A stretch of DNA of 64,000 nt from Nitrospira sp. GTDB taxonomy: Bacteria > Nitrospirota > Nitrospiria > Nitrospirales > Nitrospiraceae. This document shows, piece by piece, positions 18,294 through 45,254 of the stretch (positions within the stretch are counted from its first letter, which is position 1; each line of letters opens with the position of its first letter). The stretch lies in the NCBI GenBank assembly GCA_024998685.1, contig JACOEH010000012.1:1-64000 (forward strand), written 5' to 3'. Below the pieces are notes generated by a model. The model worked only from the letters and a program-made list of their open reading frames with translations, did no database searches and was not told the DNA's origin. Made by a program: the position numbers and the translations under genes.

Positions 18294-18314
18294 CGACGAG
18301 TTGGAACTCACACC

Positions 18315-18770: not shown

Positions 18771-18798
18771 CAGGACGTGCGAGTGCGGATGACATCCG

Positions 18799-30075: not shown

Positions 30076-30106
30076 GGGTCGGAGCCGACCCTTTCCGGAA
30101 AGGGTC
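30076..30106 (+). promoter_or_regulatory. Two mutually exclusive hairpins (attenuator-like)
   Basis: GGGTCGG-AG-CCGACCC (30076-30091) and the perfect 20-base palindrome GACCCTTTCCGGAAAGGGTC (30087-30106) share the GACCC segment, so only one can form in RNA. A T/C-rich run (TTCTTCACTTCTCC) follows. The layout suits a terminator/anti-terminator, or the palindrome could be a protein-binding operator. It lies between the sigma-54 activator and the cluster. Confidence 0.5.
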
Positions 30107-30160
30107 TTCTTCACTTCTCCTCTTCGAACCATCTCTTCAGGCGCCGGGTCGCGCAACACC

Positions 30161-30493: not shown

Positions 30494-30529
30494 GCGAATC
30501 GTCGCATGGAGATCGTGAGGGAGCGACAC

Positions 30530-31633
30530 GTGGATCAAACGATGAGTGGTACGAAATCAAGTGAGTCGTGTCGATGCAACACCATACCTCGTTTGTCGTA
30601 TGCGAATCTCAAGTTGAGTAGAAAGCATGTTCCGCCCATGCAGCGATATACATCGGCGCCGCTCAGCGCGCCGCGGATCACTCTCGGTCATATCCCAACT
30701 GGTTGGCGTGGTACGGAACAAACGGTTGAGCATGTACAGGCACTGATTCGAGCCGGCGCGAAAGATTTTTATGTTCGGCAAAAGGCCATCGACATTTTGT
30801 TGGAGAAGCACGTCAAGCCCAAGGACTACCTGGCCGAAATCAACGCTCTTCTCGAATGGGTCCAACAGCATATTCGTTATACCAAGGACACCTATCAGGT
30901 GGAGGTGCTCCATTCCGCGAGACGCATGCTTGAGTTACGAGCCGGTGACTGCGACGACATGACCATCCTGTTGGGGGCAATGGTGGAGGCAATCGGTCAC
31001 CCAGTGCAGCTGGTCCTGAGCGGACCAGACCCACTCAGGCAGGACCTGTTTACTCATATTTATCTAGAGGTGTTTCACAAAGGCCGTTGGATTCCGTTGG
31101 ACGCCACCATGCCCTATCCGATGGGCTGGGCGCCCAAGACACCGGTGAAAAAAATCATCCCGATCAAGAGGAGGTCCACCATGATGGCTGAGGACATGGA
31201 ATTACAAGGCATCAGCGCTGCCGGGGCAGTTCCGGATTGGCTGAAGGGATTGATCAGGACGGTGCGGAGAGAGGCCCTGCAACCCAAAGACGCACGAATA
31301 AAGTCCTTGTGGGATTTGCTGCGGCAACGTCAATTGCTGCATCGAAGCCGATGGCTCAAGGCAGTGCTGCAGCGTATGTGGAGTAGAGGACTGTCCGCGC
31401 GGCCCCATCCGCGCACTGCGCGCCGGATCGTGAAGAGATTGCGACGGTGGGGCGTCTTGCCGCCGAGGTCAGTGGGTGCAACGGCGTATCGCCCGGCAGG
31501 CGCTCGCCCCGTCACACGAGCTGCTGTTCAGGCGGTTCGACCGGTGGCGCTCAAACCAGTCGCGTCGTTGCGGCCTGCAACCATGCAGCCGGTCCGACCA
31601 GTGCAGATGCAACCGGCGGGAGCAAAGCGATAG
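30530..31633 (+). CDS. Transglutaminase-fold cysteine enzyme with long basic tail
   Basis: This 367-residue protein has a transglutaminase-like core with Cys141 (AGDCDDMT), His176 (FTHIYLEVF) and Asp191 (PLDATMP), so the triad is complete. Such cores act as peptidases, amidases or protein cross-linkers. After about residue 200 there is a segment with EDMELQGISAAG, resembling the repeats of the acidic protein downstream, then an Arg-rich helical tail and a Pro/Val repeat (ARPVTRAAVQAVRPVALKPV). GTG 30530 is chosen for its AGGGAG site; 30506 (ATG) is possible. No signal peptide is seen. It is probably the cluster's processing or cross-linking enzyme. Confidence 0.85.
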   Translation: MDQTMSGTKSSESCRCNTIPRLSYANLKLSRKHVPPMQRYTSAPLSAPRITLGHIPTGWRGTEQTVEHVQALIRAGAKDFYVRQKAIDILLEKHVKPKDYLAEINALLEWVQQHIRYTKDTYQVEVLHSARRMLELRAGDCDDMTILLGAMVEAIGHPVQLVLSGPDPLRQDLFTHIYLEVFHKGRWIPLDATMPYPMGWAPKTPVKKIIPIKRRSTMMAEDMELQGISAAGAVPDWLKGLIRTVRREALQPKDARIKSLWDLLRQRQLLHRSRWLKAVLQRMWSRGLSARPHPRTARRIVKRLRRWGVLPPRSVGATAYRPAGARPVTRAAVQAVRPVALKPVASLRPATMQPVRPVQMQPAGAKR

Positions 31634-31637
31634 GGAA

Positions 31638-32006
31638 ATGAGTTGTCGATGCGAAACATGTTCCCATGGCGATAGCGTTCATAACGGATCGCTGATGAGG
31701 CACACCGACATGGTCATGCCGACTCAACATATGCAGCAAGGGATGAGGCTCTACCGTGCGTTTCATCAATTTGGACCGGCTCACGTCGTGAAAGTTCATC
31801 ATTCCAGAGTCATCCCGCCGGTCGTGGTGGAACTCGGCGAATTGGTGGGGCTGATGTATCGCTCCGATAAAGGACAACCAGGTCAACCTCTAACCTACAT
31901 TCACCGAATGGAGGATCCACCGCGTCTGGTCAGTAACATTGAAGGAACGCAACTGTATATCGTGGGGGGCAGTTACCGTGTCACTCCGCGAGGGATCGAA
32001 GGCTAG
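31638..32006 (+). CDS. Small Cys-rich hypothetical protein
   Basis: This 122-residue protein begins MSCRCETCSHGD, a possible metal-binding CxCxxC. Segments HVVKVHHSRVIPPVVVELGELVGLMY follow, split over about residues 50-75, and the end (LYIVGGSYRVTPRGIEG) looks like a beta domain. The ATG lies 5 bases after the transglutaminase stop with GGGAA before it. A later start at 31694 cannot be excluded. No family is recognised. Confidence 0.6.
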   Translation: MSCRCETCSHGDSVHNGSLMRHTDMVMPTQHMQQGMRLYRAFHQFGPAHVVKVHHSRVIPPVVVELGELVGLMYRSDKGQPGQPLTYIHRMEDPPRLVSNIEGTQLYIVGGSYRVTPRGIEG

Positions 32007-32073
32007 AGCGATCGAAATTCATATTGAGCAACTTGCATATGGCTGATTCGCCTATACAAGCAGAGGGAACGAC

Positions 32074-32388
32074 ATGGAAAAGAATCAACAGCTCGGATTG
32101 GATGAGTTGATGATCGTGAACCCCAGTGCATCGGGGGAAGAGGCCATGTTTCTTGGCGAAGACGGCACGTTGTATCAGATGCAGAGTCTTGGAAAAAGCA
32201 CAGGGCAAGGAATGGGGCAATACTTTCTGAGCGGGGACGGTTCGCTCTATCAAGTACAGGATTCCGAAGCCGGCAGTTCAGCTGAGCCGGCCAAAAATTC
32301 AGGAGAAGGTCTGAGACAAGAGGAAGGCCGTGGGATCGGCCGATATTTCCTCGGGTCGGACGGGATGTTGTACGAGGTTGTCAGGTAG
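32074..32388 (+). CDS. DGxLYQ-repeat protein (short)
   Basis: This 104-residue acidic protein is built of three similar segments: MFLGEDGTLYQMQSLG, YFLSGDGSLYQVQDSE and YFLGSDGMLYEVV. They are separated by Gly/Ser/Glu-rich linkers (STGQGMGQ, EEGRGIGR). GAGGGAAC precedes the ATG. The same [DG]xLYQ unit occurs three times in the longer protein at 33068, so the two are related and may interact. No signal peptide or known domain is visible. Confidence 0.75.
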   Translation: MEKNQQLGLDELMIVNPSASGEEAMFLGEDGTLYQMQSLGKSTGQGMGQYFLSGDGSLYQVQDSEAGSSAEPAKNSGEGLRQEEGRGIGRYFLGSDGMLYEVVR

Positions 32389-32419
32389 GCGTTCATTGGT
32401 ACGAATAAAGGAGGCTGTT

Positions 32420-33040
32420 ATGGCGAAGGTGCAAGGTGTGAAAGAAAAACTGCATTCCCCGCTCTACGATGCGTTCTTCGTGAAGCAAGAAGGCTCAAAA
32501 AAGTTCACAGATTTTATGACCGATCCACGAGTAATTCGCTTTTTCGTCGATATTCAGAACAAAACCAGGTTGGAAACGAACCTGCAAGCTTCCGGCGTTC
32601 TGCCCAGCTTGAATACATTCGAGGCGCGTGCCTTGCGCGTGGTGGTTTCAAACCTACGTTTCGAGGAGCCCACGGCTGGGGCGCCGAGAGGCGCGCTCAA
32701 TGAAAGTGCAATTTTGGCGGACCTTATCTACAACTCTGTGACTTCATTGATTGTGGGGGAAAAGATAATGATCGAGATGCCGACCTTCTGGTTTCCATCC
32801 GGCGCCGGTGTCAGTCCAGGCCTCACTGTCTCCAACCACGGCGAACCTGATCCAACTGCGACATTCCGCTTCGCCGAGCCTGTGTATATCGAACCACAGC
32901 AGGCCTTCCGAGTAGAGATGGCATTCCCTCAGGGAGTACCAGGAGTAACTCCACCAGAAACCGAAAAGTTGGCCCACGTAACCGGTCCACTTCGTATCTG
33001 GGTCGTACTGGATGGCTACCTGACGCGTGATGTCCAGTAA
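32420..33040 (+). CDS. Beta-rich structural-type protein 1
   Basis: This 206-residue protein has its ATG preceded by AAAGGAGG. It lacks a signal peptide and is strand-rich in the second half: LIVGEKIMIEMPTFWFP, then YIEPQQAFRVEMAFP, then LRIWVVLDGYLTRDV at the end. The pattern xxPxxxFRVEM followed by xxVxLxGY is shared with the protein at 34153, so both may have one fold, such as a jelly-roll-like sandwich. Strong ribosome-binding sites suggest high expression. I suspect an abundant structural subunit, but no known capsid or coat family is recognised. Confidence 0.75.
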   Translation: MAKVQGVKEKLHSPLYDAFFVKQEGSKKFTDFMTDPRVIRFFVDIQNKTRLETNLQASGVLPSLNTFEARALRVVVSNLRFEEPTAGAPRGALNESAILADLIYNSVTSLIVGEKIMIEMPTFWFPSGAGVSPGLTVSNHGEPDPTATFRFAEPVYIEPQQAFRVEMAFPQGVPGVTPPETEKLAHVTGPLRIWVVLDGYLTRDVQ

Positions 33041-33067
33041 CCGGCGGAAACATAAAGGAGGCGAACC

Positions 33068-34057
33068 ATGCAGTACTTGAGCGAAGACCAAGTGAACCAG
33101 ATGATGGGCGTCGGCTACCTCGGCGAGGTGCGGCAGGGGCCGGATGGGAATCTCTATCAATATGTGCAGGGGGTGGATGGTTTGGGAAACCCCATCGGCG
33201 GCTTCTGGAGTAGATTGAAGCGGTTTGCTCGTGGGGTAGTCCGCAAGGCGCTGCCCATAGCCCAACAATTTGCCCCGTTTATTCCCGGAGGTGCTACGGC
33301 GCTTACAGCAGTGACTCCATTTCTCAAACAGGCCGGAGTCGCCGGGCAAGAGGGTCTCGGCGCACTCTATCAAGCGCCGGACGGCAGCCTGTACCAGCAG
33401 GTCCAGGGCTTAGCCGAAGACGAGGAGCTCCGGGGGCTGGGAGAAGACGAGGTCACCCAGATGATGGGCATCGGTTATCTCGGCGAGGTGCGTCAGGGGC
33501 CGGATGGGAATCTGTATCAATATGTGCAGGGGGTGGATGGTCTGGGAAACCCCATCGGCGGCTTCTGGAGCAGGTTGAAGCGTGTTGCTCGCGGGGTAGT
33601 TCGCAAGGCGCTGCCCATAGCCCAACGATTTGCGCCTTTTATTCCCGGGGGCGCTGCGGCGCTTACAGTTGCAACTCCATTCCTGAAACAGGCCGGCGTT
33701 GCGGGCTATCAAGGTCTGGACGAAGACGATGAGCTTCGAGGTCTCGCCGAAGATGAAGAACTGCGAGGTCTGGACGAAGACGAAGAGTTGCGAGGAATCG
33801 ATGAAGACGAAGAGCTACGCGGACTTTCAGAAGACGAGGAATTGCGCGGCCTGGATGCGGACGACGAGCTACAGGGCCTTGCCGAAGATGAAGATCTGCG
33901 TGGCGTTGGAGAAGACCAGGATATGCAAGGATTCGACGGTTATATACGGCGGGACGGCATGAATGGACTGGAAGCTTTCGTGCCGCAGGAACCTCCGCAG
34001 ACGCGTTGGCATGTGGCTTCCGCCCAGCCGCCGGAGGTGTGGAAACCACTGTGGTAA
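33068..34057 (+). CDS. Tandemly duplicated DGxLYQ protein with acidic nonapeptide repeats
   Basis: This 329-residue protein consists of two near-identical blocks of 120 residues followed by a repeat tail. Each block has GYLGEVRQGPDGNLYQYVQG, a basic amphipathic stretch (WSRLKRFARGVVRKALP), and a hydrophobic segment (FIPGGATALTAVTPFLKQAG) that could enter or bind a membrane. The tail has eight units of GLxEDEELR type, strongly acidic. The C-terminus ends PPEVWKPLW. The ATG is preceded by AAAGGAGG. It could be a scaffold, spacer or membrane-active component. No family is recognised. Confidence 0.8.
   Translation: MQYLSEDQVNQMMGVGYLGEVRQGPDGNLYQYVQGVDGLGNPIGGFWSRLKRFARGVVRKALPIAQQFAPFIPGGATALTAVTPFLKQAGVAGQEGLGALYQAPDGSLYQQVQGLAEDEELRGLGEDEVTQMMGIGYLGEVRQGPDGNLYQYVQGVDGLGNPIGGFWSRLKRVARGVVRKALPIAQRFAPFIPGGAAALTVATPFLKQAGVAGYQGLDEDDELRGLAEDEELRGLDEDEELRGIDEDEELRGLSEDEELRGLDADDELQGLAEDEDLRGVGEDQDMQGFDGYIRRDGMNGLEAFVPQEPPQTRWHVASAQPPEVWKPLW
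33086..33720 (+). repeat. 360-bp-period tandem duplication
   Basis: ATGATGGGC at 33101 and ATGATGGGC at 33461 mark equivalent points exactly 360 bases apart. Long stretches (for example GGGCCGGATGGGAATCT and GGGGGTGGATGG) are identical between copies, and substitutions are few and mostly silent. The duplication is therefore recent or homogenised. Confidence 0.85.
33713..33928 (+). repeat. Eight 27-bp units coding for acidic nonapeptides
   Basis: Units read GLDEDDELR, GLAEDEELR, GLDEDEELR, GIDEDEELR, GLSEDEELR, GLDADDELQ, GLAEDEDLR and GVGEDQDMQ. Synonymous codons vary between units, so the amino-acid pattern seems selected. An isolated unit (GLAEDEELR) also lies between the two large blocks. 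Confidence 0.85.
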
Positions 34058-34152
34058 GCCGAGCGACAAGATTTCCTATCCTGCATCTCAGGAACGCGCT
34101 CCGTCGTTGGACATGCGATGCCATGATGCAGAGGGAGTAGGAGGTACTGACG

Positions 34153-34782
34153 ATGCGATTTGGATTGAGTCAAGACCAGCAACAGGTCCCCACGCGATCA
34201 GCGCCGGACATGACGCCGCCGACTGCATCGCCAACGACCAAAGAGATTCCCTACGATTATGTGGCCAAATTCACATTGAAAGGACAACGCGGCAATCGTG
34301 TGCAGGATGTGATCAACATCAGTATCGAAGGCGCATTCATCGCAACGGCCATCGGCTATAGCTTTATCCCCGCGAAGTTACAGACGTTGACGACGGGAGT
34401 TACAGGTGTGCTCAGCGCATCAGCGAATGACAGCTTGGGCCTATTGCTCAACAGTCTGCTGGCACTGGAACAAAACGACCCTCGGATGCTTGCTCAATGC
34501 GTGCTCGTGAAACTCTGCGGGATCGACTTCAAGTACAGCATCGTCGATAGCGGCAGCGGCCGTGAGTTGCAAAATCAGCCGATTCATAATATCGCGGGAC
34601 TCGGTGAGGCAACCGGTGAGCGGCCCTTCCGGCCTTTGGCCAAACCGATGCTGTTCATGCCTCGCTCGACCATTCGGCTCGAAATTGAGGAGATCTCGGA
34701 AGGGCCGGTTTACGCCAATGCGGAACTGTTCATCGTGTTGCACGGCTACAAGATACTGGGCTTCGGGACGGGGATGTCATGA
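34153..34782 (+). CDS. Beta-rich structural-type protein 2
   Basis: This 209-residue protein has a strong AGGAGG site upstream. The N-terminus MRFGLSQDQQQVPTRS resembles the tagged leaders downstream only loosely. The core has YVAKFTLKGQRGNRVQDVI, LFMPRSTIRLEIEEIS and AELFIVLHGYKILGFG. The last two match the arrangement in the protein at 32420, suggesting a common fold and perhaps a hetero-oligomer. No signal peptide is present. It overlaps the next gene by 4 bases (ATGA). Confidence 0.75.
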   Translation: MRFGLSQDQQQVPTRSAPDMTPPTASPTTKEIPYDYVAKFTLKGQRGNRVQDVINISIEGAFIATAIGYSFIPAKLQTLTTGVTGVLSASANDSLGLLLNSLLALEQNDPRMLAQCVLVKLCGIDFKYSIVDSGSGRELQNQPIHNIAGLGEATGERPFRPLAKPMLFMPRSTIRLEIEEISEGPVYANAELFIVLHGYKILGFGTGMS

Positions 34783-35276
34783 ACGGCAACCATGCGTGCG
34801 ATGTTCATCGAGACGCTAGTTATTCCAATGTATGCCAGGTCTGCGGCGTTCCCATGGATGCCGGCTATTTCGATGTCGCCAGTATCAAGGACGCGCCCAA
34901 GAAAGTAGGAGATGAAGTCGAGCTTGCGCGATACGAGCTGAACCCCCAGTATTGCGGCACATTGCTGTATTTCATGCAATATGCAGAGGATTCTGTCACG
35001 ACGAAGCAAGTAATATCCCACACACCCGGTTATCAATGGGTGATTCTCTGTAACAATCAGCCCCGCGCCCCGTACCTACCCACAGAACTGATCTTAAATC
35101 CATGGGGTGCGAATGCCCTTCGTATCGAATTGAGATTGGAAGAGGGCTGCACGTTGCGGTTCGTCGTGAGAAGAGTCGCGACTACCGTGTCGCCGGAATT
35201 GTCGCAAGTCGGAGGCCGGCTCCTCGGTCGAACTTGGTACAACACGATCTATGGAGGAACGCCGAATCGATTATGA
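34779..35276 (+). CDS. Cys/His-containing beta-sandwich-like protein
   Basis: This 165-residue protein starts with CDVHRDASYSNVCQVCG, a possible zinc knuckle (C/H/C/C). A strand-rich domain follows: YQWVILCNNQP, TELILNPWGANALRIEL and CTLRFVVRRVATTV. It is translationally coupled to the preceding structural-type gene. The position suggests a linker or vertex component; this is inference and no family is recognised. Confidence 0.7.
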   Translation: MNGNHACDVHRDASYSNVCQVCGVPMDAGYFDVASIKDAPKKVGDEVELARYELNPQYCGTLLYFMQYAEDSVTTKQVISHTPGYQWVILCNNQPRAPYLPTELILNPWGANALRIELRLEEGCTLRFVVRRVATTVSPELSQVGGRLLGRTWYNTIYGGTPNRL

Positions 35277-35368
35277 GCCATATGTGCAAAGGAAGAAGGT
35301 CCCCGCTATACCCACCAAAGCAAGGAAGGTGACGCATATTCTGGATTACCAAGTGGAAGGAGAACACC

Positions 35369-35923
35369 ATGTATCTAAGAACAAAGGGAGGGTTGGGATG
35401 GGACCTGGAGCCAAGATTGGCTCCACCACCCTTTAATCAAGTTATGGCCGAGCCGATTCCCATCGGCTACTTGGGTAGGCTCAACGAGCAGATGGGAAAT
35501 GCCAAGGAATCCTGTGAGGCCCGATATAAAGTCGAATACTTTCAACCGGGCAGTGAGACGTTTACCAGAGTAATTGAGAAAGATATCCAGGATATTTGGA
35601 AAAATATGTTTGGTTTGCTTCGACGCAAACTAAGGGGGAAGAAGATAGACATAAAAAAAGACGTAATACTGACCATTATTACTAAAGGTTATATGGATGT
35701 GTCCGGCGACGTAGCGGAAAAACGCGAAGCTCTTGACGCTTTTCGTGCATTCGCGGTGTTGGAAGCGCTTCACCGCCAGGCATTATTGAAAAATATTCCT
35801 CGTAAAAATATAGAATATGATTACTCGGGTAAAGGTCAACGCCTACCTAGAAATCGGAAATCTGGTAAGAACCGTATGGTCGACGTTTGCATACGGTGGG
35901 ATATTAAACCGCAAACACCGTGA
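35369..35923 (+). CDS. Leader-tagged protein with OmpA-like C-terminal region
   Basis: This 184-residue protein starts with the cluster leader in the form MYLRTKGGLGWDLEPRL, with AAGGAG before the ATG. The C-terminal half resembles OmpA/MotB peptidoglycan-binding domains: VILTIITKGYMDVSGD, EALDAFRAFAVLEALHR, then KNIEYDYSGKGQRLPR and GKNRMVDVCI, where KNRxVDV mimics the NRRVEI signature. The characteristic second aspartate is not obvious, so binding may be lost. No signal peptide is seen. It is the first of the leader-tagged series. Confidence 0.65.
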   Translation: MYLRTKGGLGWDLEPRLAPPPFNQVMAEPIPIGYLGRLNEQMGNAKESCEARYKVEYFQPGSETFTRVIEKDIQDIWKNMFGLLRRKLRGKKIDIKKDVILTIITKGYMDVSGDVAEKREALDAFRAFAVLEALHRQALLKNIPRKNIEYDYSGKGQRLPRNRKSGKNRMVDVCIRWDIKPQTP

Positions 35924-36105
35924 CCTAGCCTATTGATCATGAGTGTCTCATGCCCGTTAGGTTCGTGCTTAGCGACGAGATAGGCTGCCGGGTTGCAAAC
36001 TGAAGGGTAATAATATGCGCTTTCGGATACCTGTGTTCCAGGCGCATCGGAATCATGTTCACGTGGCGAGGTAGTTGCCAAGTTAGACGTCAAAGGAGGC
36101 TCGAC

Positions 36106-36819
36106 ATGTACGTGACTGCCAGACAAGGGTTGGAGCAAGCCCCGATGCTGGGTCAGCACTCTCTGAAGCACCTGCCAGACTGGATGAGACTCTACCTGAA
36201 TAATGTTGACGCGAATTACCGATCCTACACATGGCTGTTTTTTATTTTCTTGGCACATCCCACCCCCCACTCGGTCAGCACATTGAGATCGTTGGGAGAT
36301 AAGATCGCGTTCGATCTGCGCGGCGTTCCCCTTTTTTGGTGGGGCGAGCTCCGCGAAGAACTAAACCGGATCCGGGTCCGCCGTCAGATGGAAGACAAAG
36401 ACTTCGCACGACTGCTTTCAAAGTATTTTCGGCTTTTTCAAGAGGTTGATAAGAGATTTAAGACATTCAAACGGGAAGATCTGAAGCCCTTTCTGATTGA
36501 GGTATTACTGGCTAGCGGCCGGATCAAGAATGTGCCGGGCAGTGATCCCAAAAATTGGGCGGGACCCTTCCTTCACACTGGCGGTCCCTCGTTGAACCTA
36601 GGAAAACGCTTCGTCAGGGAGAAGTTGCCTCCGGAGCTGTCCAAACGACTCACCGAAAGCCCATGGTATGTCCAAGAAGTCATCTACGCGCACTTGGCAA
36701 GGTCGCTCTGGGTCATGGCGAACGCTTTTCAATTCGAAAATGCCGCCTTCCGAAAAGAGGTTGAGAGGGAGGAGAAAGCTAGGACTACGCGAGTGATCGA
36801 GAAAACAAAGAGTGAATAG
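36106..36819 (+). CDS. Leader-tagged family A protein, member 1
   Basis: This 237-residue protein has the leader MYVTARQGLEQAPMLGQ, with AAAGGAGG upstream. It aligns with the proteins at 37657 and 39418. Shared landmarks are WLFFIFLAHP (LLIV in the others), FARLLSKYFRLFQEV, LKPFLIEVLLASG, then FVREKLPPELSKRL and a charged C-terminal helix (REEKARTTRVIEK). The fold appears alpha-helical. No enzymatic motif or signal peptide is visible. It is the most diverged of the three. Confidence 0.7.
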   Translation: MYVTARQGLEQAPMLGQHSLKHLPDWMRLYLNNVDANYRSYTWLFFIFLAHPTPHSVSTLRSLGDKIAFDLRGVPLFWWGELREELNRIRVRRQMEDKDFARLLSKYFRLFQEVDKRFKTFKREDLKPFLIEVLLASGRIKNVPGSDPKNWAGPFLHTGGPSLNLGKRFVREKLPPELSKRLTESPWYVQEVIYAHLARSLWVMANAFQFENAAFRKEVEREEKARTTRVIEKTKSE

Positions 36820-36856
36820 GGGAAGCCCGGCACGATGTGATTGAAGAGGATTCACC

Positions 36857-37192
36857 ATGTACATGTCGGTAGGTCTAGGACAGCCGCAGACCCAATCGGA
36901 TTGTTCCGGATGGGAGAAAGACCCGGAAAGCTTTAGCCGAGTCATCGCCAAACACCATATACGCACGGAGCTGGGACAGTCACTTAACGTTAAAAGGATG
37001 AGTCGGGTCACTCAGACAGCGTGGCGAATAGAATTCCCCAATGATATTGCGGTTTATGTAACCCTTGCGAAAGTTCCAGATTTCGTCGTCGCCGCACGCT
37101 GGTACCCGAAGCCGGCGGGGAAATCCCGCTTCTATACATATTCCTGCACAAGCGATGGCCAGGTGGTGTTCACGGAGCGTCAGAGGCCGTAA
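36857..37192 (+). CDS. Leader-tagged family C protein, member 1
   Basis: This 111-residue protein has the leader MYMSVGLGQPQTQSDCSGWE. The remainder looks like a small alpha/beta domain (WRIEFPNDIAVYVTLAKVP, FVVAARWYP, FYTYSCTSDGQVVF). The truncated ORF at 38403 begins MYLPTTLGQPQGQGSCSGWE and is clearly a relative that shares the leader and the CSGWE that follows it. No known family is recognised. Confidence 0.65.
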   Translation: MYMSVGLGQPQTQSDCSGWEKDPESFSRVIAKHHIRTELGQSLNVKRMSRVTQTAWRIEFPNDIAVYVTLAKVPDFVVAARWYPKPAGKSRFYTYSCTSDGQVVFTERQRP

Positions 37193-37225
37193 ACAGACTC
37201 CGATATCAGGCGGAGGACGAATATC

Positions 37226-37622
37226 ATGTATCTTGAAACTGGCTTAGGGCAACCTTCCAAACGGCGACGGAAAAGACCATTCATATCGCCACCGAGAGTC
37301 GTTCCGGCAGATGACCTATTTCGAGCAGAAATGCTGTGGCGTTTGAAAGTTCCATTCAGAAGAGACCTTGAGGCCTTTCGTCAGGAAGTGGCGAAGGCAA
37401 TTGGGGCGGCATGTTATTAAGGATGCAAGCGATATAACAAAGGTAGATGATTGGATATTAAAGCGCGAGGAGAATGAGCAGCGCCTTAACACCATACATC
37501 ATGATCTACTGAAACTCGCCAAGAAAGAATCCGACATCGTTATAGTCCGCACCAGATATACCTTTCTTAGAGGCGTTGACACGGTGATCTCTACAGTGGA
37601 AATCGTAAGGGCGGAGTACTGA
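37226..37622 (+). pseudogene. Leader-tagged family B protein, member 1, frameshifted
   Basis: The first frame (to 37420) reads MYLETGLGQPSKRRRKR, then LKVPFRRDLEAFRQEVAKAIG. The match to the protein at 40135 (IPFRKDFRAFRQELSRAIG) then moves to the +1 frame, which runs to 37622 (WILKREENEQRLNTIHHDLL and the strand-rich IVIVRTRYTFLRGVD). One inserted base near 37400-37415, within a G-rich run, would explain it. It may be a pseudogene, a +1 frameshift, or an assembly error. Confidence 0.65.
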
Positions 37623-37656
37623 CGGTGGGCAGCGTTCCACGGTAAAGAAGGTTTTT

Positions 37657-38355
37657 ATGTATATAAATACGGGCGCAGAATCAGTGCAGATTCCCATGGT
37701 GCACGGGTCCGTTTCCGGCACACTCGGCGAAGACGTCGATTCGAAGAAGATTATTAATGACTTTCTCAATCAAGTCCGCCGGAACCCCCAAAGTTTCAAG
37801 AAGCTCCTCTTGATTGTCGCTTTGCACCCCATGCCCGATGACAGCCGTATCGGGGAGAAGCAGACTTTTACATTGGGTAAAGAGACTCGATATCTTGTTG
37901 ATGAGATCCTGATGTCGGGACTATCAACGGCGTTTGTCGTAACTGTGCTTAAGCGGTACAGCGATGCCAACTTCAGTCGGCAAATCAAAGATGAGGCGCA
38001 TCTCCAGATTAAGATGATTCTCGCTACTCAGAATTTGAATAAAACGGTGCTTCAACCATTTTTGTATGACCCATTATTATTGCCAATGTCTGGCGGGGGG
38101 CTGCCCTACAAGGAACTTTCCAGGTTAGCCCGACATTTCGCGCAACATATGTTGCCGGGGGATCTTGTGCAACGGATCATGAATAGCGATGCCTCCGAGG
38201 CGCACTTTGCCCATCTTGGGAGTTATCTCCGCAGCCACGCTGAGACGTTGCAAAAAAAGGATCCCCACTTCAAACGCCAAGTAGAGATAGCACGCAAGTG
38301 GCAGCGAGAACTGGAACAAAGGAGAAAACAGCAGGGAACAAAGAAAGCCCCATGA
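37657..38355 (+). CDS. Leader-tagged family A protein, member 2
   Basis: This 232-residue protein has the leader MYINTGAESVQIPMVHGS, the least typical of the set. It shares with the 39418 protein the order: GTLGE, FLNQVRRNPQSFKKLLLIVA, FSRQIKDEAHLQIKMIL, LQPFLYDPLLLP, FAQHMLPGDLVQRIMNS, AHFAHLGSYL, and a basic C-terminal helix. The fold appears helical and without transmembrane segments. The function is unknown. Confidence 0.7.
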   Translation: MYINTGAESVQIPMVHGSVSGTLGEDVDSKKIINDFLNQVRRNPQSFKKLLLIVALHPMPDDSRIGEKQTFTLGKETRYLVDEILMSGLSTAFVVTVLKRYSDANFSRQIKDEAHLQIKMILATQNLNKTVLQPFLYDPLLLPMSGGGLPYKELSRLARHFAQHMLPGDLVQRIMNSDASEAHFAHLGSYLRSHAETLQKKDPHFKRQVEIARKWQRELEQRRKQQGTKKAP

Positions 38356-38402
38356 TTCGGACATGAAGCACTCGGTGGCAGAGAGATGGGAGAAGATTCG
38401 CC

Positions 38403-38516
38403 ATGTATCTGCCGACAACTCTGGGACAACCGCAAGGCCAAGGAAGCTGCTCAGGGTGGGAGCGCTACGCGGAACGCTGGTTTTCAGCAATTCGCAAGCA
38501 GGCCCAAAAAATGTAG
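38403..38516 (+). pseudogene. Leader-tagged family C protein, member 2, truncated to 37 residues
   Basis: This ORF reads MYLPTTLGQPQGQGSCSGWE, then RYAERWFSAIRKQAQKM and a stop. The first 20 residues parallel those of the protein at 36857; the remainder does not. The next leader-tagged gene begins 17 bases later. It may be the scar of a cassette replacement, or a free leader peptide that is still translated (GAAGATTCGCC precedes the ATG). Confidence 0.55.
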
Positions 38517-38532
38517 CGAGGAGGTTGCGCAC

Positions 38533-39240
38533 GTGTATCAGGCAGTTTGCATCAATCATGTGGATGGGCTCGGTGCTGCACTCGGATCTCAGCTAGGGCA
38601 ACCGGGTTCCGTCCTAGTCGATGTTCCTGTGCACCACGTCGAGTGTTCCGCGATCGGGTTGGCCGATCTGACCGACTGGACGCAATTCAACTGGACCTGC
38701 GCTGCGATCAAGGCCGATCTCAAACAAGACGCTGCAGCTGCTGCGGCTATGGCAAAGACCGCATCGTTATTCATCGAACATCCGACCCCTGGCCAACTGG
38801 CGGCGTTCGTTGAGGTCTTTGGCTCCCGACCCGAAAGCCTCGTTCCGGGGACCCGGTTCATCATCGGCAAAGTGATCAAAACGAGGTTCGACGGCGTCTT
38901 TAAGCTGCTCGATTCCGGCGGGCTGCTGTATTCGCTCGGGCTGCCGGCGCGCGCGGGCGGACCGGAGCCGGCTGATCGGCTCGGCTACCAGTTCAAGGCA
39001 AAAGCGGGGCAGTTGTGGATCGCGCTTGGTCGCAGTCATTTCACTGAACCGTTCCGCGATCAACGGGCGTCCAACGTACTCGCGGCGACGATGTTGGCTG
39101 CGTATGGCGAGTGGGTCAAGCGGTCGTCGGCAGCACCGCCGATCAACAACGTTTTCTGCTACCTCAAGTTCGTCTATCGCGCCTGGGGTGGTTTGGAAGC
39201 GCCGCTGTGGGTGCTGGACCACTGCTCCGTGAGCGTCTAA
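38533..39240 (+). CDS. Leader-tagged singleton protein
   Basis: This 235-residue protein starts at the GTG at 38533, which has GAGGAGG 8 bases upstream; the frame extends to 38386 without support. The start reads (M)YQAVCINHVDGLGAALGSQ followed by LGQPGSVL, so the LGQP tag appears at about residue 20 rather than 8. The body has FGSRPESLVPGTRFIIGKV, FDGVFKLLDSGG, and GYQFKAKAGQLWIALGRSHF. GC content looks higher than its neighbours. No family is recognised. Confidence 0.65.
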   Translation: MYQAVCINHVDGLGAALGSQLGQPGSVLVDVPVHHVECSAIGLADLTDWTQFNWTCAAIKADLKQDAAAAAAMAKTASLFIEHPTPGQLAAFVEVFGSRPESLVPGTRFIIGKVIKTRFDGVFKLLDSGGLLYSLGLPARAGGPEPADRLGYQFKAKAGQLWIALGRSHFTEPFRDQRASNVLAATMLAAYGEWVKRSSAAPPINNVFCYLKFVYRAWGGLEAPLWVLDHCSVSV

Positions 39241-39417
39241 CGTTCGTTCGGACTGGTCCGGACTTGAACTTACCGCGTGAGGCTTTTGCCCGGAAGTGCT
39301 GATCGGAGGATATAGGGAAGACCGGAATGAATATTTGGCCGACCGGCTGACGAAAGAGCTTATGTAGGTTCCAATAGATTGTCGTGAGATTGTCGTGGAT
39401 CAAGCGGGAGGACCACC

Positions 39418-40077
39418 ATGTACCTGAGAACAGCAGAAGGGTTAGGGCAAGTCCCAATGCGATACAACCCTTTTGCCGGCACACTGGGTGAACCCCCACT
39501 TCCGCCCGAGATTCAGAAGTTCCTCGCTAGAGTAAAAGGGAATCCCCAGAACTATGAAGCGGTTCTTTTGATCGTCCACTTTCACGAAGAACCGTTTATA
39601 AGCGATCGATTGAGGAGGGCCTTTTCGGCAAGCTTTGAAAACGACGCAAAAGATCCGCTTGAAGAAGCCAAAGCGATCCAGGGGGCAGTGACTCAGGCGT
39701 TGGAAGGCATCTACAAAAAGCATCTACGGGATAACCGTTTCAGTCAGCTCGTTAAGAAAGAGCAGCAACTTATCTCGGAGGTTGTCAAGGCTTTCCAGAA
39801 ACGCATCAAAGAATTGGAAACCAAAGGATGGTTAGAGCCGCTTCTGATCGATGCGTTGCTGGCCGACGACCCCCTTGGTCTACCCGCGGTCGGAAGGGCA
39901 TTTGTCCTTTCTAGTTTGCCAGATGAGATTGCTGAAGAGGTTCTTAACAGCAGGGTGCCGGAAACGCATTATATGAGGTTAGGGAAAGTCCTCCTCTTGA
40001 TGGCAGAGCAGCGAAAAAACGCTAATCCTGTTTTCAAAGAACGCATCGAAAAAGAGCGGAAAAAGCGAGGGCAATAG
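39418..40077 (+). CDS. Leader-tagged family A protein, member 3
   Basis: This 219-residue protein has the leader MYLRTAEGLGQVPMRYNPF, preceded by GGGAGGACC. It is the closest relative of the protein at 37657: GTLGEPPLPPEIQKFLARV, NPQNYEAVLLIVHFHE, FSQLVKKEQQLISEVVKAF, LEPLLIDALLADDPLGLP, SLPDEIAEEVLNSRVPETHY and a Lys/Arg-rich terminal helix. The fold appears helical with no enzymatic motif. It lies 177 bases after the previous gene. Confidence 0.7.
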   Translation: MYLRTAEGLGQVPMRYNPFAGTLGEPPLPPEIQKFLARVKGNPQNYEAVLLIVHFHEEPFISDRLRRAFSASFENDAKDPLEEAKAIQGAVTQALEGIYKKHLRDNRFSQLVKKEQQLISEVVKAFQKRIKELETKGWLEPLLIDALLADDPLGLPAVGRAFVLSSLPDEIAEEVLNSRVPETHYMRLGKVLLLMAEQRKNANPVFKERIEKERKKRGQ

Positions 40078-40134
40078 AAGACATATCTTGGATCGGCGAC
40101 ACCGACTCAAGATTACCAAAACAAGGATGGCACC

Positions 40135-40503
40135 ATGTATCTTGAGACCGGCTTGGGACAGCCATTCAAACAGCGATCTCCCTATAAGCCTGACCTAAGA
40201 AACGTAACTGCGCATTGGACTGTCCAAATACCGTTTAGAAAAGATTTTCGGGCCTTTCGTCAGGAGCTCAGCCGCGCGATTGGATGGCCACACTCAGGGG
40301 GCCTTCTTCGCGATGAAACCGACAAGAAATATTTTGACGGGTACCTGCAGGACGATCTTCTCAAGGCCATGCATAATCGACTGCTGAAGCGCAAATCCCC
40401 CAAACTCAAAGCAGATGATGTGGTTAAGGTGAACGTTGATATCACATTCAAGAGTATGGATTACACGAACCTGGCGGAAATTGCTGTGAAGGAACAAAGA
40501 TAA
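40135..40503 (+). CDS. Leader-tagged family B protein, member 2 (intact)
   Basis: This 122-residue protein has the leader MYLETGLGQPFKQRSPYK, nearly the same as the frameshifted relative at 37226. The body has WTVQIPFRKDFRAFRQEL, LLKAMHNRLLKRKSP and VVKVNVDITFKSMDY, then EIAVKEQR. It looks like a small alpha/beta domain with two strands flanking helices. No known family is recognised. A short tetranucleotide repeat follows its stop. Confidence 0.65.
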   Translation: MYLETGLGQPFKQRSPYKPDLRNVTAHWTVQIPFRKDFRAFRQELSRAIGWPHSGGLLRDETDKKYFDGYLQDDLLKAMHNRLLKRKSPKLKADDVVKVNVDITFKSMDYTNLAEIAVKEQR

Positions 40504-40510
40504 GCCTTAT

Positions 40511-40532
40511 ATCTATCTATCTATCTATCTAT
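40511..40532 (+). repeat. Tetranucleotide microsatellite, ATCT x 5.5
   Basis: Five and a half perfect ATCT units lie just after the family B stop. Such repeats can slip and cause phase variation. It precedes an ORF with a decayed leader and the tail-fibre-like gene. A 36-codon ORF with a hydrophobic stretch begins at 40531, but it has no ribosome-binding site. Confidence 0.8.
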
Positions 40533-40565
40533 GATCGTAAACCGTCAGCGTCTCAACCTCGGTTT

Positions 40566-40778
40566 ATGGAACAACCCGTTACCTCGCGGCCTGCTTTACG
40601 CAATTCTTATTGCTGTGATCGAGTTGTTAGCGATTTCTTGAGACGTGGAGGAGCCGACAGTGAATATGGTTGGGCACATGAAGGGTTGGGACAATCGATT
40701 GCTGATGCACTCTCCAAAAAAGCTCAGGCACCTTTCATTGTTGCCGCAACATACCAACTTATAGGAGAAATACGATGA
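40566..40778 (+). pseudogene. Decayed leader-tagged ORF coupled to the fibre-like gene
   Basis: The frame contains EYGWAHEGLGQSIADALS, which mimics a leader (MYxxxxEGLGQ) whose ATG has become GAA. GGAGGAG lies at the expected distance upstream. Downstream residues are SKKAQAPFIVAATYQL, and the stop overlaps the next ATG by 4 bases. Translation could still begin upstream at 40566, but without a good site. It may persist for coupling. Confidence 0.5.
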
Positions 40779-41329
40779 CTACTATTTCCACTCAATCAAA
40801 TGATGGTGGCCTCGTTATCACGTCGAATGACGGCAAGCTCAATTCTCAATCTGCGGTCCTGGAGGTGAGTGCTACCAACGAGGACTATAACCAACCCGTG
40901 CTGCGTATCAAACAAGCAGGTACACATGGAGGGGCGGCCTCGATCCGGATCGATGACCCGAATCCCGACATCGAGTTTGTCGAGACGGGCCTAACGGGTC
41001 CTGATCCCAACGCCGGGAAGTTCGAGATTGCCGTTCAGGCGGACCAACTCCAGATCAACGGCCGCAAAGCCGATGTCGGCCCCAACAAAGGCTTTGAGAC
41101 CATTATCGTGTTCACGCGGCCCGCAGCGGGCGGCAATATCGGTATCGGATTTCCCGAAGCCAACTACAAAAAGTTTGCAGGAGGAAAGGGTGTCATTGTG
41201 ATCGCGAATGCCTCTGTCGCTCCTTCCCCGCAGAAGAAGATCGCCGGCGCGGGCATCTTGTTTGTTCAGGATGGGGCGCTCAAGTATATGGGTTCTAAGG
41301 GAACGGTGACGGAGATCGCGCCGGCCTAG
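40775..41329 (+). CDS. Tail-fibre/receptor-binding-like protein
   Basis: This 184-residue, Gly/Asp-rich, strand-repeating protein has no signal peptide. The middle (LRIKQAGTHGGAASIRIDDP) and especially the end (GAGILFVQDGALKYMGSKGT, then VTEIAPA) resemble C-termini of phage tail-fibre and minor tail proteins, where GGGVLYVxxGALKYxGSxGT is common. It is probably a trimeric beta-structure exposed at a particle tip or surface. It is translationally coupled to the decayed ORF before it and followed by the peptidase gene. Confidence 0.7.
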   Translation: MTTISTQSNDGGLVITSNDGKLNSQSAVLEVSATNEDYNQPVLRIKQAGTHGGAASIRIDDPNPDIEFVETGLTGPDPNAGKFEIAVQADQLQINGRKADVGPNKGFETIIVFTRPAAGGNIGIGFPEANYKKFAGGKGVIVIANASVAPSPQKKIAGAGILFVQDGALKYMGSKGTVTEIAPA

Positions 41330-41409
41330 CAGTTATCAGCCGCTCCTTCGCCTCGACGAAGGAGCACTCTGACAGACTCAGTCGCCTTCTGCAGAAAAGG
41401 AGATTGACG

Positions 41410-42984
41410 ATGAGCCGCAAAACAAGACAGGCTCGCTCAAAAGTTCCGTCTCGCGCTCGACGAGCCTCTCACTTCATTTGGCCCCTCGGCAAGAGTCCCA
41501 CCACGCCGGATGAGATGAACACGTCCTACGGTCCGCGTATCGACGCGGATCGCTGGGATTTTCATGACGGCATCGATTTGCCTGCTCCCGTCGGTACAGC
41601 GGTCCATGCCATGGCGGACGGCACGGTGCATCGCGCCGGGCCGGCGGATCAGGTTTTCGGCTCAACCCATGTTCGTCTCAAAGTCGTCGATCCGACGGAT
41701 GGGCAGGATGACCTGTTTCTTGTTTATCTCCATCTCGACAGTATCGCCGAGGGTGTGATTCCCGGTGTCCAGGTGAACCAAGGCGATGTGCTTGGTGCGG
41801 TGGGGCAGGAGGATGCAGAGTATCCACATCTTCATTTCGAGTTTCGGAAAGGCGGTCCCGAAGAAGTCCACAGCGTGCATCCGCTGCGTTATCTGGATTA
41901 CTTGAATACGGCGAATTTCACGCGGCTCCGTTTGGATCGCTGTAATTTCTCCAGCGACGACGGCGACAAGCGACTGGTGAGGCTTCGTTTTGACGTCGTG
42001 GACCGCCGAGAGGGTGATGTGAAGGGCGTGGATGTGGAATTGAAGCGCGTCGGCGGCGAGCCTCAGAAGCTTCACGTTGACTTCGATGACCGAGAGACCA
42101 TTGTGAGCGATAAGGGCGACCAACATGCCTTCAAGAATGGAATCGCTGTGGAAGGTTACCAGAAATCCAACCTGAAGGGAGAGGGATTGAAGGCTCTACG
42201 TTATGGCGTGCTGATCAAGGATATTGCTCCGGAATTCGAACGTGTGAAGCTCAATGTGCTGGATGCCAGGAATGAGAACCAGAAGAGCGCCGAATTTCCT
42301 TTGCCGAAACTGAGAACCGGCCAGAAGCCCATCAATAGTCGCGCCGGTTTTGAAGAAAGAGAATCGTTTCCGCCTCGAGGTTGGGAACTCAGCATACGGT
42401 CCGGGAATATCTGCCGGCCGGATGAACGCGCCAAGCTTACAGATGCGCGCGGATTACTCTGTCAAGACCTCGGTAGCACGCGAGGACCTCTGATTCGCGC
42501 AGGGCTGCGCTTTGCCTTGCCCATCGACCGTGCTGTTCGTCCCATGTCCTGGCGCCTAAAGGCCGACATTAAGCCCGCAGAATTGCAAATGGGAAAGGGA
42601 TTGGTGATGCATCCGTTGGTCTTCTTGGCAGGCAACGAGATCGTCGCCGCCGCTTGCCTGCGGAAGGTCGTCAGCGGAGAACTCTTTGCAGGCGTCATGA
42701 TTCGCAGCAAGGACGGATTCTTCAGGGAGCGAATCAACAAGGGCGAGAAGGGAAAGATTTCCATGGACGGCCCGATCGGATGGGAGGTTGAGCTGCCCAG
42801 AATAGGCACCAGACAGACGACGGCCCTATTACGGCTCAACGACGAGATAGTGGCTCGCATCAACGGCGATACGACGAGGGTCGAGCCTGATGCCGCCTGT
42901 GTGGGTATTGTGCATCGGCACAGCGGATTACAGATCACGCTCCATGTTGATCAATTGCTCCTGACGGAGCGCCGTGATAGATGA
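41410..42984 (+). CDS. M23-family peptidase with large C-terminal extension
   Basis: This 524-residue protein starts at the ATG at 41410 with AAAGGAG upstream. A basic N-terminus (MSRKTRQARSKVPSRARRAS) without a signal peptide precedes the lysostaphin-like domain. The zinc ligands are present: His52 and Asp56 (HDGID) and His140/His142 (PHLHF). M23 enzymes cut peptidoglycan cross-bridges. After residue 160 there is a long beta-rich region of unknown type, ending with a possible concanavalin-like fold (LQITLHVDQLLLTE). As the last gene of the cluster it could open the cell wall for release or entry. Confidence 0.85.
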   Translation: MSRKTRQARSKVPSRARRASHFIWPLGKSPTTPDEMNTSYGPRIDADRWDFHDGIDLPAPVGTAVHAMADGTVHRAGPADQVFGSTHVRLKVVDPTDGQDDLFLVYLHLDSIAEGVIPGVQVNQGDVLGAVGQEDAEYPHLHFEFRKGGPEEVHSVHPLRYLDYLNTANFTRLRLDRCNFSSDDGDKRLVRLRFDVVDRREGDVKGVDVELKRVGGEPQKLHVDFDDRETIVSDKGDQHAFKNGIAVEGYQKSNLKGEGLKALRYGVLIKDIAPEFERVKLNVLDARNENQKSAEFPLPKLRTGQKPINSRAGFEERESFPPRGWELSIRSGNICRPDERAKLTDARGLLCQDLGSTRGPLIRAGLRFALPIDRAVRPMSWRLKADIKPAELQMGKGLVMHPLVFLAGNEIVAAACLRKVVSGELFAGVMIRSKDGFFRERINKGEKGKISMDGPIGWEVELPRIGTRQTTALLRLNDEIVARINGDTTRVEPDAACVGIVHRHSGLQITLHVDQLLLTERRDR

Positions 42985-43080: not shown

Positions 43081-44397
43081 TCAAGCCGAGTGGTCCGTGA
43101 TGAGCTCCGCACAGCGACGGGCGCTGACGAGCGCACTCTCCAGATTGGTCGGCCATCCGGTGTCGGTCCATGCCCCGGCGACGAGCAAATTCTGAATGGG
43201 GCTCTGTTGAATCGGCCGCAGGCGCACGACACCGGGCATAAGCGACAGGGCGGCGTGGTGCTCTCGAAAGACTGATCGAACGGTTACCTCCTTCCTGGCC
43301 GTTTCTGAGAACAATTCGCATATCTCGGTCAGCGCGGCATCGACCACCTGATCCTTGTTCAACTCGATGAGCTCGTTTCCGACGGCGGATAGTCGATACT
43401 CGATCTCGCCTGAGCCGAGCGATGTGCTGGTGATCTGATGGAATGGTCGGCCCGATTGGAGAAGCAGCCGAGGCCGTTGCTTCATGGTCGGGCCGGTCAA
43501 TTGAATCACGATCTCGCTCAAACTTTTGAGCTCGGTGATCTGTGCGAAATAGGCGTAGCGTGTCAGCAGCCGTTCCGGCAGCAGCTGCAATAGATTTTGG
43601 TAGGATAGCGCAATGACGTACCGATCGGCCCGCAGCCTGGTGTCGTCATGAAGCCGGACTTCGCTCACGCCGGTCTGTCCAAAGCGAAGGGTAGGCCGAT
43701 GGGCCAGGGAAACGATCCGCACATGAGCCCGATGGAGTGTCTGTTTCATGGGAATGATGAACCGATGGTCGATGGAACCGGCCAGAAGTGTGAGCCTCGC
43801 GTCCGACGCATCTCGAAGAAACACGGTTGAAAGCAGGTGAACGAAGGTTGCGGCGGAGAGACGCGCCAGCGCGTTGCCGGTCAACCATTGGACGAGCGGA
43901 TCCCAAATTCGTTCTCTGGCTTCGTGACTTTGTCCGGTAGCCGTCAGCCATTCATCCGCAGTCCGGTTCTCCAAATCCGCCGGGAGGGTTTGGGCCTGTT
44001 CCCAAATTTGCTCGACATGGGAGAAGAGTCTCCACCGATCCTGCCACGAAAGGCCGTGGAAACTGAAGAGGCTCATCATCCACTGCAAGGCTCCGGGGAG
44101 GCGGGCTGGCTGATAGGGGAAGATTCGCCCGTTGGGCAGCCGAAATCCCAGTGGAATCGTTCGATCGGCTTCCGAAGGCCATTCTCCACCGAGCGCACAA
44201 AGGATCCGCCTCGTCTCATGATGGCATCCCAGAACGATCGGCGCGAGTTGGGACGCATCGGTCCGGAACCCATCGAGCCAGTCAGCATGATCGAGCAAGG
44301 TGATCCGGTAACCCTGTCGATGAAGATGGTATGCGGTTGTGAGACCGGCCAGGCCGGCACCGAGAACAAGGACGCTGTGTGAAGATGGCTCGGTCAC
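43081..44397 (-). CDS. hpnE: Hydroxysqualene dehydroxylase (squalene-associated FAD-dependent desaturase)
   Basis: This 438-residue flavoprotein removes the hydroxyl from hydroxysqualene to give squalene, the precursor of hopanoids. The FAD-binding start is VLVLGAGLAGLTTAYHL; the C-terminal NLLVAGAWTDTGWPTNLESA is the family signature. A GTG at 44397 overlaps the hpnD stop by 4 bases and is preferred to the TTG at 44418. It pairs with hpnD in the HpnC/D/E pathway; hpnC is not in this window. Confidence 0.9.
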   Translation of the reverse strand: MTEPSSHSVLVLGAGLAGLTTAYHLHRQGYRITLLDHADWLDGFRTDASQLAPIVLGCHHETRRILCALGGEWPSEADRTIPLGFRLPNGRIFPYQPARLPGALQWMMSLFSFHGLSWQDRWRLFSHVEQIWEQAQTLPADLENRTADEWLTATGQSHEARERIWDPLVQWLTGNALARLSAATFVHLLSTVFLRDASDARLTLLAGSIDHRFIIPMKQTLHRAHVRIVSLAHRPTLRFGQTGVSEVRLHDDTRLRADRYVIALSYQNLLQLLPERLLTRYAYFAQITELKSLSEIVIQLTGPTMKQRPRLLLQSGRPFHQITSTSLGSGEIEYRLSAVGNELIELNKDQVVDAALTEICELFSETARKEVTVRSVFREHHAALSLMPGVVRLRPIQQSPIQNLLVAGAWTDTGWPTNLESALVSARRCAELITDHSA

Positions 44398-45254
44398 GAG
44401 AATCGGGAGCGGAGCCAAACACGTAGAGCAATAATCATTCGTTGGATGGTGGTGAGACTGATACGCGGTCCGAAGACCTGATAGTTCGATTGTTCGATCC
44501 GTTCCAAAATCCGACTGTAAACACCACGCATGATTTCTGCCACGGTCAGCGCGCGACGTTCCTGAGGCGATAGTCCCATGAGGGCCGCATCGGCCCGCTT
44601 GTAATAATGGTGCGCTCGGGAGGCCTCATATTCCATCAATGCGCGGAACTCCGGAGAATAGCTTCGATTAAATATGGCTTTTTCAGAATGATTCCACTTC
44701 CGCAAGTCGTCCAACGGCAGATAAATTCGACTTTCGGCGGCGTCTGTTCCGACATCGCGGAGGATGTTTGTCAGTTGGAAGGCCATGCCGAGCGCGACTG
44801 CATAATCTTGTGCGCGTGCCGATGTGACACCGAATATATGTAAACAGATGAGCCCCACCACGGAGGCGACGCGATAGCAATAAAGGGACAGCTCATCGAA
44901 CGTGACATACCGATTGTTGAACAGGTCCATCTCGACGCCTTTGATCAATTCCTCGAAATACGCCTTCGGAATACCCAAGGCCTTCACATGGCAGGCGAGG
45001 CTCACCATGATGGGAGTGGTCGGGGTGCCTGAATACACCGCTTCCAGCTCCTCACGCCAATGCTTGAGTTCGTCTTTCGGGTTGCTCCCGACGGTCGGTT
45101 CATCAACGGCACTGTCGACGGCCTTGCAGAAGGCATAGACCGTGTACATGGCGTCGCGTTTGGCCTTGGGAAGGAACAGGAACGAATAGTAAAAGTTACT
45201 GCCGCTCTTCTTTGTGTAGGCCGTGCAGTAGGCTTGCGCTTCAGAGACCGTCAT
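44394..45254 (-). CDS. hpnD: Presqualene diphosphate synthase
   Basis: This 286-residue head-to-head prenyl synthase joins two farnesyl diphosphates. The Asp-rich motifs are AVDSAVDEP and LTNILRDVGTDAAE, and YCYRVASVVGLICLHIFG is typical of the squalene/phytoene synthase family. It overlaps hpnE by 4 bases and its own start overlaps the upstream cobalamin-binding gene by 4 bases. It supplies hopanoid synthesis for outer-membrane ordering. Confidence 0.92.
   Translation of the reverse strand: MTVSEAQAYCTAYTKKSGSNFYYSFLFLPKAKRDAMYTVYAFCKAVDSAVDEPTVGSNPKDELKHWREELEAVYSGTPTTPIMVSLACHVKALGIPKAYFEELIKGVEMDLFNNRYVTFDELSLYCYRVASVVGLICLHIFGVTSARAQDYAVALGMAFQLTNILRDVGTDAAESRIYLPLDDLRKWNHSEKAIFNRSYSPEFRALMEYEASRAHHYYKRADAALMGLSPQERRALTVAEIMRGVYSRILERIEQSNYQVFGPRISLTTIQRMIIALRVWLRSRFS

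Follow-up and report, generated by a model that had tools for sequence, protein, structure and literature searches.

A portable N-terminal tag on exchangeable genes beside predicted jelly-roll proteins in a Nitrospira gene island

Why should nine successive genes for different proteins start with much the same short leader? The question is raised by an array of open reading frames (ORFs) at positions 35369 to 40778 of a 64,000-nucleotide stretch from Nitrospira sp. (contig JACOEH010000012.1, positions 1 to 64,000, forward strand; hereafter the window), which had been picked out in an earlier, model-made reading of the letters alone (the sequence-only reading). We compared the window with other Nitrospiraceae genomes, including G030, G421 and G258 (the last from another genus), and with more distant loci such as L025 of a Caldilineales bacterium. 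The comparison demonstrates a conserved core of genes, exchangeable bodies behind a constant tag, selection on the encoded proteins and an island-like insertion. We give an even chance to the view that the whole cluster (28259-42984) is one functional unit, in which a virus-derived shell is loaded with enzyme cargo via the N-terminal tag.

A similar leader on nine successive genes

In agreement with the sequence-only reading, nine genes of the array share a similar start. All nine begin with [M/V]Y behind a purine-rich Shine-Dalgarno-like stretch, and in most of them GLG follows soon after. They are listed here as tagged candidate cargo genes, with one relic at the end of the array and the support for each entry in brackets:

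35369-35923, + strand: tagged gene, MYLRTKGGLG; C-terminal half OmpA-type-like, by eye (start and ribosome-binding site)
36106-36819, + strand: tagged gene, MYVTARQGLEQ, body type A (start, type A paralogy)
36857-37192, + strand: tagged gene, MYMSVGLGQP, body type B (dN/dS 0.09 with G258, dS near saturation)
37226-37420, + strand: tagged gene, MYLETGLGQP, type C, interrupted (rest of the body in another frame, 37368-37622)
37657-38355, + strand: tagged gene, MYINTGAESV, body type A (78% identical to the G258 copy)
38403-38516, + strand: truncated tagged gene, MYLPTTLGQP, remnant of type B (type B paralogy)
38533-39240, + strand: tagged gene starting with GTG, VYQAVCINHVDGLG, GC-rich body of no known family (start and ribosome-binding site)
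39418-40077, + strand: tagged gene, MYLRTAEGLGQ, body type A (start, type A paralogy)
40135-40503, + strand: tagged gene, MYLETGLGQP, body type C (start, type C paralogy)
40566-40778, + strand: relic of a beta-lactamase-like body, with EYGWAHEGLGQ in its interior (homologous to the G258 gene at 17705)

The YQAVC gene most likely starts at the GTG at 38533, which lies behind GAGGAGG. Two of the nine genes are broken, since 38403 stops after 37 codons and 37226 after 64 codons. The MYINTGAESV leader has no early GLG but carries GTLGE at residues 21-25. EYGWAHEGLGQ, which the sequence-only reading had counted as a decayed tenth leader, was rejected: it aligns with the interior of an intact beta-lactamase-like protein of the G258 slot (DHGYAWVHEGLGQSITDELSKK), and the ORF is therefore a relic of a lost body. 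The intact G258 relative itself starts with MYIYD.

The claim that the bodies all differ did not hold. Five body families are present in the window, namely types A, B and C and those of 35369 and 38533; the three types are sets of paralogues, with type A (36106, 37657 and 39418) forming one family of 28-34% identity. For genes that have a counterpart in G258, or that G030 and G421 have in common, the ratio of nonsynonymous to synonymous substitution rates (dN/dS) is 0.09-0.46, with near-saturated dS in two pairs. These values point to purifying selection, so the ORFs look translated.

A tag length of about 10-25 residues was estimated. Because leader codons vary from gene to gene, it is the peptide rather than the DNA that has been kept similar. 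The GC content at third codon positions is lower in leaders than in bodies by 0.133, compared with 0.028 in control genes (p 0.0014), a gap that fits a resident tag joined to incoming foreign bodies. The predicted lack of a hydrophobic Sec core was borne out by hydropathy: within the first 40 residues of 29 tagged or candidate proteins no such core was found, the maximum 12-residue Kyte-Doolittle mean being 1.36. Just past the last tagged gene, at 40509-40532, the window contains a short TATC tandem run, a possible slippage or recombination site.

The tag is restricted to a slot of variable content

The slot between the genes at 34779-35276 and 40775-41329 varies in content among relatives; the flanking core is mostly 65-88% identical between these genomes. 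Four genes fill it in G030 (an Aspzincin M35-like protein with a Pfam E of 1.9e-6, just below the Pfam cut-off; a beta-lactamase-like protein; an Amidase_2 plus Golvesin_C protein; and one with a weak peptidoglycan-binding match) and four in G421 (M35-like, OmpA-like with a weak match of E 0.007, unknown, and beta-lactamase-like). In G258, the slot holds DUF2515, type A (twice), type B, type C and beta-lactamase-like bodies. All slot genes of these three genomes start with [M/V]Y, and GLG, GLA or DLG soon follows in most. One and the same leader thus precedes nine or more body families, apparently unrelated, in the shared slot of four Nitrospiraceae genomes, and its portability across slot genes, already suspected from the window, is well supported.

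The tag is restricted to this slot. Among 146 long ORFs of these loci, 7 have tyrosine as the second residue. In the whole genome of the window, MY[LIVMF]xT...LGQ has five matches, four of which lie within the array, and none in the reversed control. A mechanical scan for a ribosome-binding site followed by [M/V]Y[LIVMFQ]...G[LI]G gave 11 strict matches in 42 kb of slot sequence. It gave none in the 217 kb of that strand that lie outside the slots, and none on the opposite strand (259 kb). When four whole genomes were scanned, 8 of 11 matches fell into slots and the remaining three had no GLG reading.

Relatives of the amidase body are ordinary, untagged amidases, mostly from Streptomyces. No relative of the M35-like body was found in the plasmids searched, and a sequence search of solved structures with three slot proteins returned nothing useful.

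The slot lies within a conserved island

The remaining genes of the cluster, which frame the slot, are:

28259-29953, + strand: sigma-54-dependent activator (AAA and HTH_8), first cluster gene (Pfam Sigma54_activat 1.7e-64)
29990-30493, + strand: small conserved protein (orthologues in relatives)
30506-31633, + strand: transglutaminase-like protein, distant relative of a phage structural protein, gp34 (Pfam Transglut_core 1.8e-10)
31638-32006, + strand: small conserved core protein, MSCRCETC...RGIEG, inside ORF 31476-32006 (orthologues in all phyla)
32074-32388, + strand: small core protein with FLGEDGTLYQ repeats (orthologues in G258, G421 and L025)
32420-33040, + strand: shell-like core protein 1, predicted single jelly roll (structure model)
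33068-34057, + strand: core LYQ/GLG-repeat protein with a hydrophobic segment in two copies (repeat analysis)
34153-34782, + strand: shell-like core protein 2, predicted jelly roll (structure model)
34779-35276, + strand: core protein 3, last conserved gene before the slot (orthologues in relatives)
40775-41329, + strand: fibre-like conserved protein closing the slot, no family (80-87% identical in relatives)
41404-42984, + strand: M23 peptidase protein, last cluster gene (Pfam Peptidase_M23 5.2e-18)

The true start of the second gene is probably near 30227, because its conserved part covers roughly the C-terminal 85 residues. The activator has orthologues at the same place and is kept in the Nitrospiraceae, Acidobacteriota and Verrucomicrobiota clusters. 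Its AAA and HTH part is RtcR/PspF-like in PADLOC, and its N-terminal 180 residues have no family. A sigma-54 promoter pattern gave no signal in the window (10 matches, 15.8 expected). PHROGs, NCBIfam and PADLOC supplied no usable family for the core, PADLOC matches being confined to the generic activator domain in the first gene; among the cluster proteins tested, curated families are limited to the regulator, transglutaminase and M23 domains and some slot-gene bodies.

On either side of the cluster lie a glycosylase-like gene (26693-27349) and an oxidase-like gene (43081-44418). These two neighbours are 0.1-1.1 kb apart in nine Nitrospira genomes without the cluster and 15.7 kb apart here, which identifies it as a discrete island. 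G030 and G421 carry it between the same two genes; the 34 kb read from G258 contained neither of them. Distribution is sparse: of 79 genomes in the genus, 4 carry the cluster, as do 2 of the 396 genomes sampled from the phylum. A cluster with activator, transglutaminase, LYQ-repeat proteins, three beta proteins and M23 protein is present in five Nitrospiraceae genomes. Leader matches beside transglutaminase, DGxLYQ and fibre-like genes, proposed as a test by the sequence-only reading, were found in other genomes as well.

A search with core protein 1 against 84,980 species genomes revealed clusters in Methylotetracoccus, Caldilineales, two Acidobacteriota and two Verrucomicrobiota. Related clusters span Chloroflexota, Acidobacteriota, Verrucomicrobiota and one gammaproteobacterium, at least five phyla with the Nitrospirota, and share several of the same core genes in conserved order. 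Core protein 2 is duplicated and fused in the Acidobacteriota and Verrucomicrobiota, and in Caldilineales the cluster encodes core protein 1 as two neighbouring paralogues (L025, 3945-5353). Genes downstream of the core have related starts, MYISQDQTGIGQ and MYISQDQTGIGQP in Caldilineales, (M/V)AYLRISGPSNGLG in Terriglobia and MPYFHQPTPFAGLG in Verrucomicrobia; the Methylotetracoccus contig ends before the slot. In these phyla the tag is looser than in the Nitrospiraceae.

Core proteins with predicted capsid-like folds

Structure models of core proteins 1 and 2, built from alignments of 10 and 11 sequences, respectively (predicted template modelling scores 0.66 and 0.56), both came out as beta sandwiches at medium confidence. 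The matches of protein 1 in the Protein Data Bank (PDB) are mostly viral jelly-roll capsid proteins, including those of SH1 and SPV1, all with E above 0.001. Its sole match below 1e-3 in BFVD is I1ZBH9 (E 1e-4). The next accession number, I1ZBI0, is in the BFVD list too. With 211 (I1ZBH9) and 256 residues (I1ZBI0), the two are as long as gp46 and gp47 from Salisaeta icosahedral phage 1 (SSIP-1), and from this we infer that they are these phage proteins. In a profile search with protein 1, gp46 was the top SSIP-1 protein, with a weak E of 0.38. Protein 2 aligns with capsid proteins of SPV1 (Z 8.4), SH1 (7.9) and P23-77 (VP17, 7.6), and profile comparison with the SSIP-1 proteins gave no match.

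The transglutaminase-like protein matches the same phage, at its gp34 (tblastn, 26.7% over 146 amino acids, E 2e-7; profile E 4e-12), which is annotated as a structural protein. In the literature, SSIP-1 is grouped with tailless membrane phages whose two major capsid proteins belong to the vertical single-barrel type (PMC4958249, PMC6356626). Related transglutaminases are also encoded on an IMG/VR contig (L018, 9935-10474) and on a 48.8 kb Persicobacter plasmid (L020, 14773-16872), which may be a relative of tailless phages.

Several results weigh against a viral origin of the shell-like proteins. The models are modest (mean predicted local distance difference test scores 65 and 68) and built on shallow alignments, and neither has a PDB match at E 1e-3. 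The similarity of protein 1 to gp46 is not significant by sequence alone, and the best PDB match of protein 2 is a cellular jelly roll, PHM (Z 8.9). By the searches used, no relative of either protein was present in IMG/VR or the phage set; tblastn likewise found nothing for protein 1 in phages and plasmids or for protein 2 in phages. As no virus was found to encode the shell-like proteins, the case for viral descent is built on folds and one enzyme.

A possible particle and the alternatives

In our proposal, the conserved genes probably encode a protein particle that derives from, or has common ancestry with, the single-jelly-roll capsid of a tailless icosahedral virus. Everything encoded between 35369 and 40503 would be its exchangeable cargo, and the N-terminal [M/V]Y[LIVM]xT with GLG within about 15 residues would act as a packaging tag by which otherwise unrelated enzymes are recruited. 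Five Y...GLG motifs, some of them overlapping, lie inside the window's LYQ core protein, compared with 0.15 in shuffled sequences, and the small FLGEDGTLYQ protein is similar in content; the tag perhaps imitates or pairs with such Y-x-x-GLG repeats. Once released, the particle would deliver to other cells enzymes able to bind or cut cell walls or proteins, probably with cell walls as the target, and the fibre-like and M23 proteins would help delivery. Particle formation, tag-dependent loading, export or release and the target are all inferred from the genes. Delivery to the outside appears likelier than an internal compartment because of the wall- and protein-acting cargo, the lack of Sec cores and the M23 and fibre-like companions. 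Use as a weapon is weakened as a reading, since no immunity genes were recognised, with several slot genes being of unknown family; this, too, counts against our proposal. For the general statement that a cellular particle based on the single-jelly-roll shell of a tailless virus, and loaded with exchangeable wall-acting enzymes via a Y...GLG tag, is maintained by bacteria in at least five phyla, we see slightly less than an even chance.

Of the alternatives, the best placed, although in our view unlikely, is that the tag directs secretion or attachment to the surface by an unknown route, with the core forming a fibre, sheet or surface layer. The amidase, OmpA-like, M35-like and beta-lactamase-like bodies would suit the envelope or the outside without a hydrophobic signal core, and jelly rolls are common in proteins other than capsids, in line with the PHM match. 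The mostly viral capsid matches of protein 1, together with the resemblance of the transglutaminase to a structural protein from a phage of this kind, speak for a particle instead.

These phage similarities (gp34 and probably gp46) and the discrete island would suit a degenerate or satellite provirus of a tailless phage with the tagged genes as its accessory genes, which we consider improbable. No Walker A motif of the form [AG]x4GK[ST] occurs in forward ORFs of at least 100 amino acids in eight clusters, so they offer no candidate for a packaging ATPase; SPV1 also lacks one (PMC8812541). Integration or replication genes were not recognised among the window genes by Pfam, several genes being of unknown family. 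The core is under purifying selection and keeps its order across phyla, and scans of viral contigs with proteins 1 and 2 gave no match.

Marginally less probable again is an intracellular enzyme nanocompartment with a targeting peptide, similar to encapsulins but with a jelly-roll shell. A short N-terminal peptide common to different enzymes and adjoining shell-like genes is what such a compartment would have; the enzymes, however, share no common pathway and belong to classes acting on cell walls and extracellular proteins, and the cluster is accompanied by fibre-like and M23 genes. That the leader marks a precursor peptide for a processing enzyme is very improbable: GLG after a variable start and the papain-fold transglutaminase-like protein nearby would suit it, but the bodies are mostly long and include several recognisable enzymes, the closest phage resemblance of the transglutaminase is to a structural protein, and Pfam identified no modifying enzyme for ribosomally synthesized and post-translationally modified peptides (RiPPs) among the window genes. 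Of the two parallels offered by the sequence-only reading, the cargo tag fits and the processed leader does not.

Relation to known systems

The proposed tagged particle can be compared with several described systems. With SSIP-1 and the phages with two single-jelly-roll capsid proteins (P23-77 and SH1; Helvetiavirae-type) the cluster shares the gp34-related transglutaminase and, at medium model confidence, two predicted jelly rolls, the first with the presumed gp46 as best viral fold match. Unlike them, it is chromosomal, kept across phyla and equipped with a slot for tagged enzymes, and packaging ATPase and replication genes were not recognised.

In the Photorhabdus virulence cassette, an N-terminal signal selects cargo for loading into a phage-derived particle (PMC11495950). 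Extracellular contractile injection systems also resemble the cluster in having exchangeable effectors next to a conserved core, a role read here from the genes; the cluster's tag differs in being short and of the Y2...GLG pattern. Sheath, tube and baseplate families were absent from the cluster proteins by Pfam, PHROGs and NCBIfam, and an AAA loader was not recognised; the only match labelled as tail was a weak PHROG match of one slot protein (E 0.0023).

Encapsulin shells have the HK97 fold. They are similar to the cluster in combining a virus-like shell with cargo routed by a short peptide, as we propose here. The shell-like proteins of the cluster (core proteins 1 and 2), in contrast, are predicted beta sandwiches without a family match, and the cargo does not consist of redox or storage enzymes. 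Slot genes, like polymorphic toxins, join a constant N-terminus to variable C-terminal bodies, but the tag is not a large trafficking domain and no immunity partner was recognised. From RiPP precursors, the tagged proteins differ in length (109-540 amino acids when intact) and in the enzyme domains that several contain.

A description of such a cluster was not found in the set of open-access papers searched, subscription journals lying outside it. Phage-derived protein-delivery machines mostly use contractile tails and, to our knowledge, known virus-derived compartments use the HK97 fold. A particle made from tailless-virus jelly rolls would, if true, be a third route. A cellular cluster has one or two structural families in common with a tailless phage, and a short portable tag would serve for loading chosen proteins. 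That the cluster represents a type of delivery or packaging system so far undescribed among tailless-virus shells we hold only tentatively, at just below even chances, and provided that the particle reading holds.

Further observations on slots and flanking genes

The genes closing the slot are repeated in some relatives. In G421 (L015), a tandem duplication at 16325-19590 comprises the fibre-like gene together with the first part of the M23 gene. In G258 (L010 and L011), a protein starting with MTVFVSYAREQQSIAEEISLALSGRG and TIR-like by eye is encoded at 21397-22152, between two copies of the fibre-like/M23 genes. Finally, two MY-starting proteins from different phyla (L029, 18899-20014, RRWISTCVMSRTRV; L010, 13444-14667, MKWIATCVQSRTKV) have an N-terminal region in common and differ afterwards, which suggests a second, longer portable domain.

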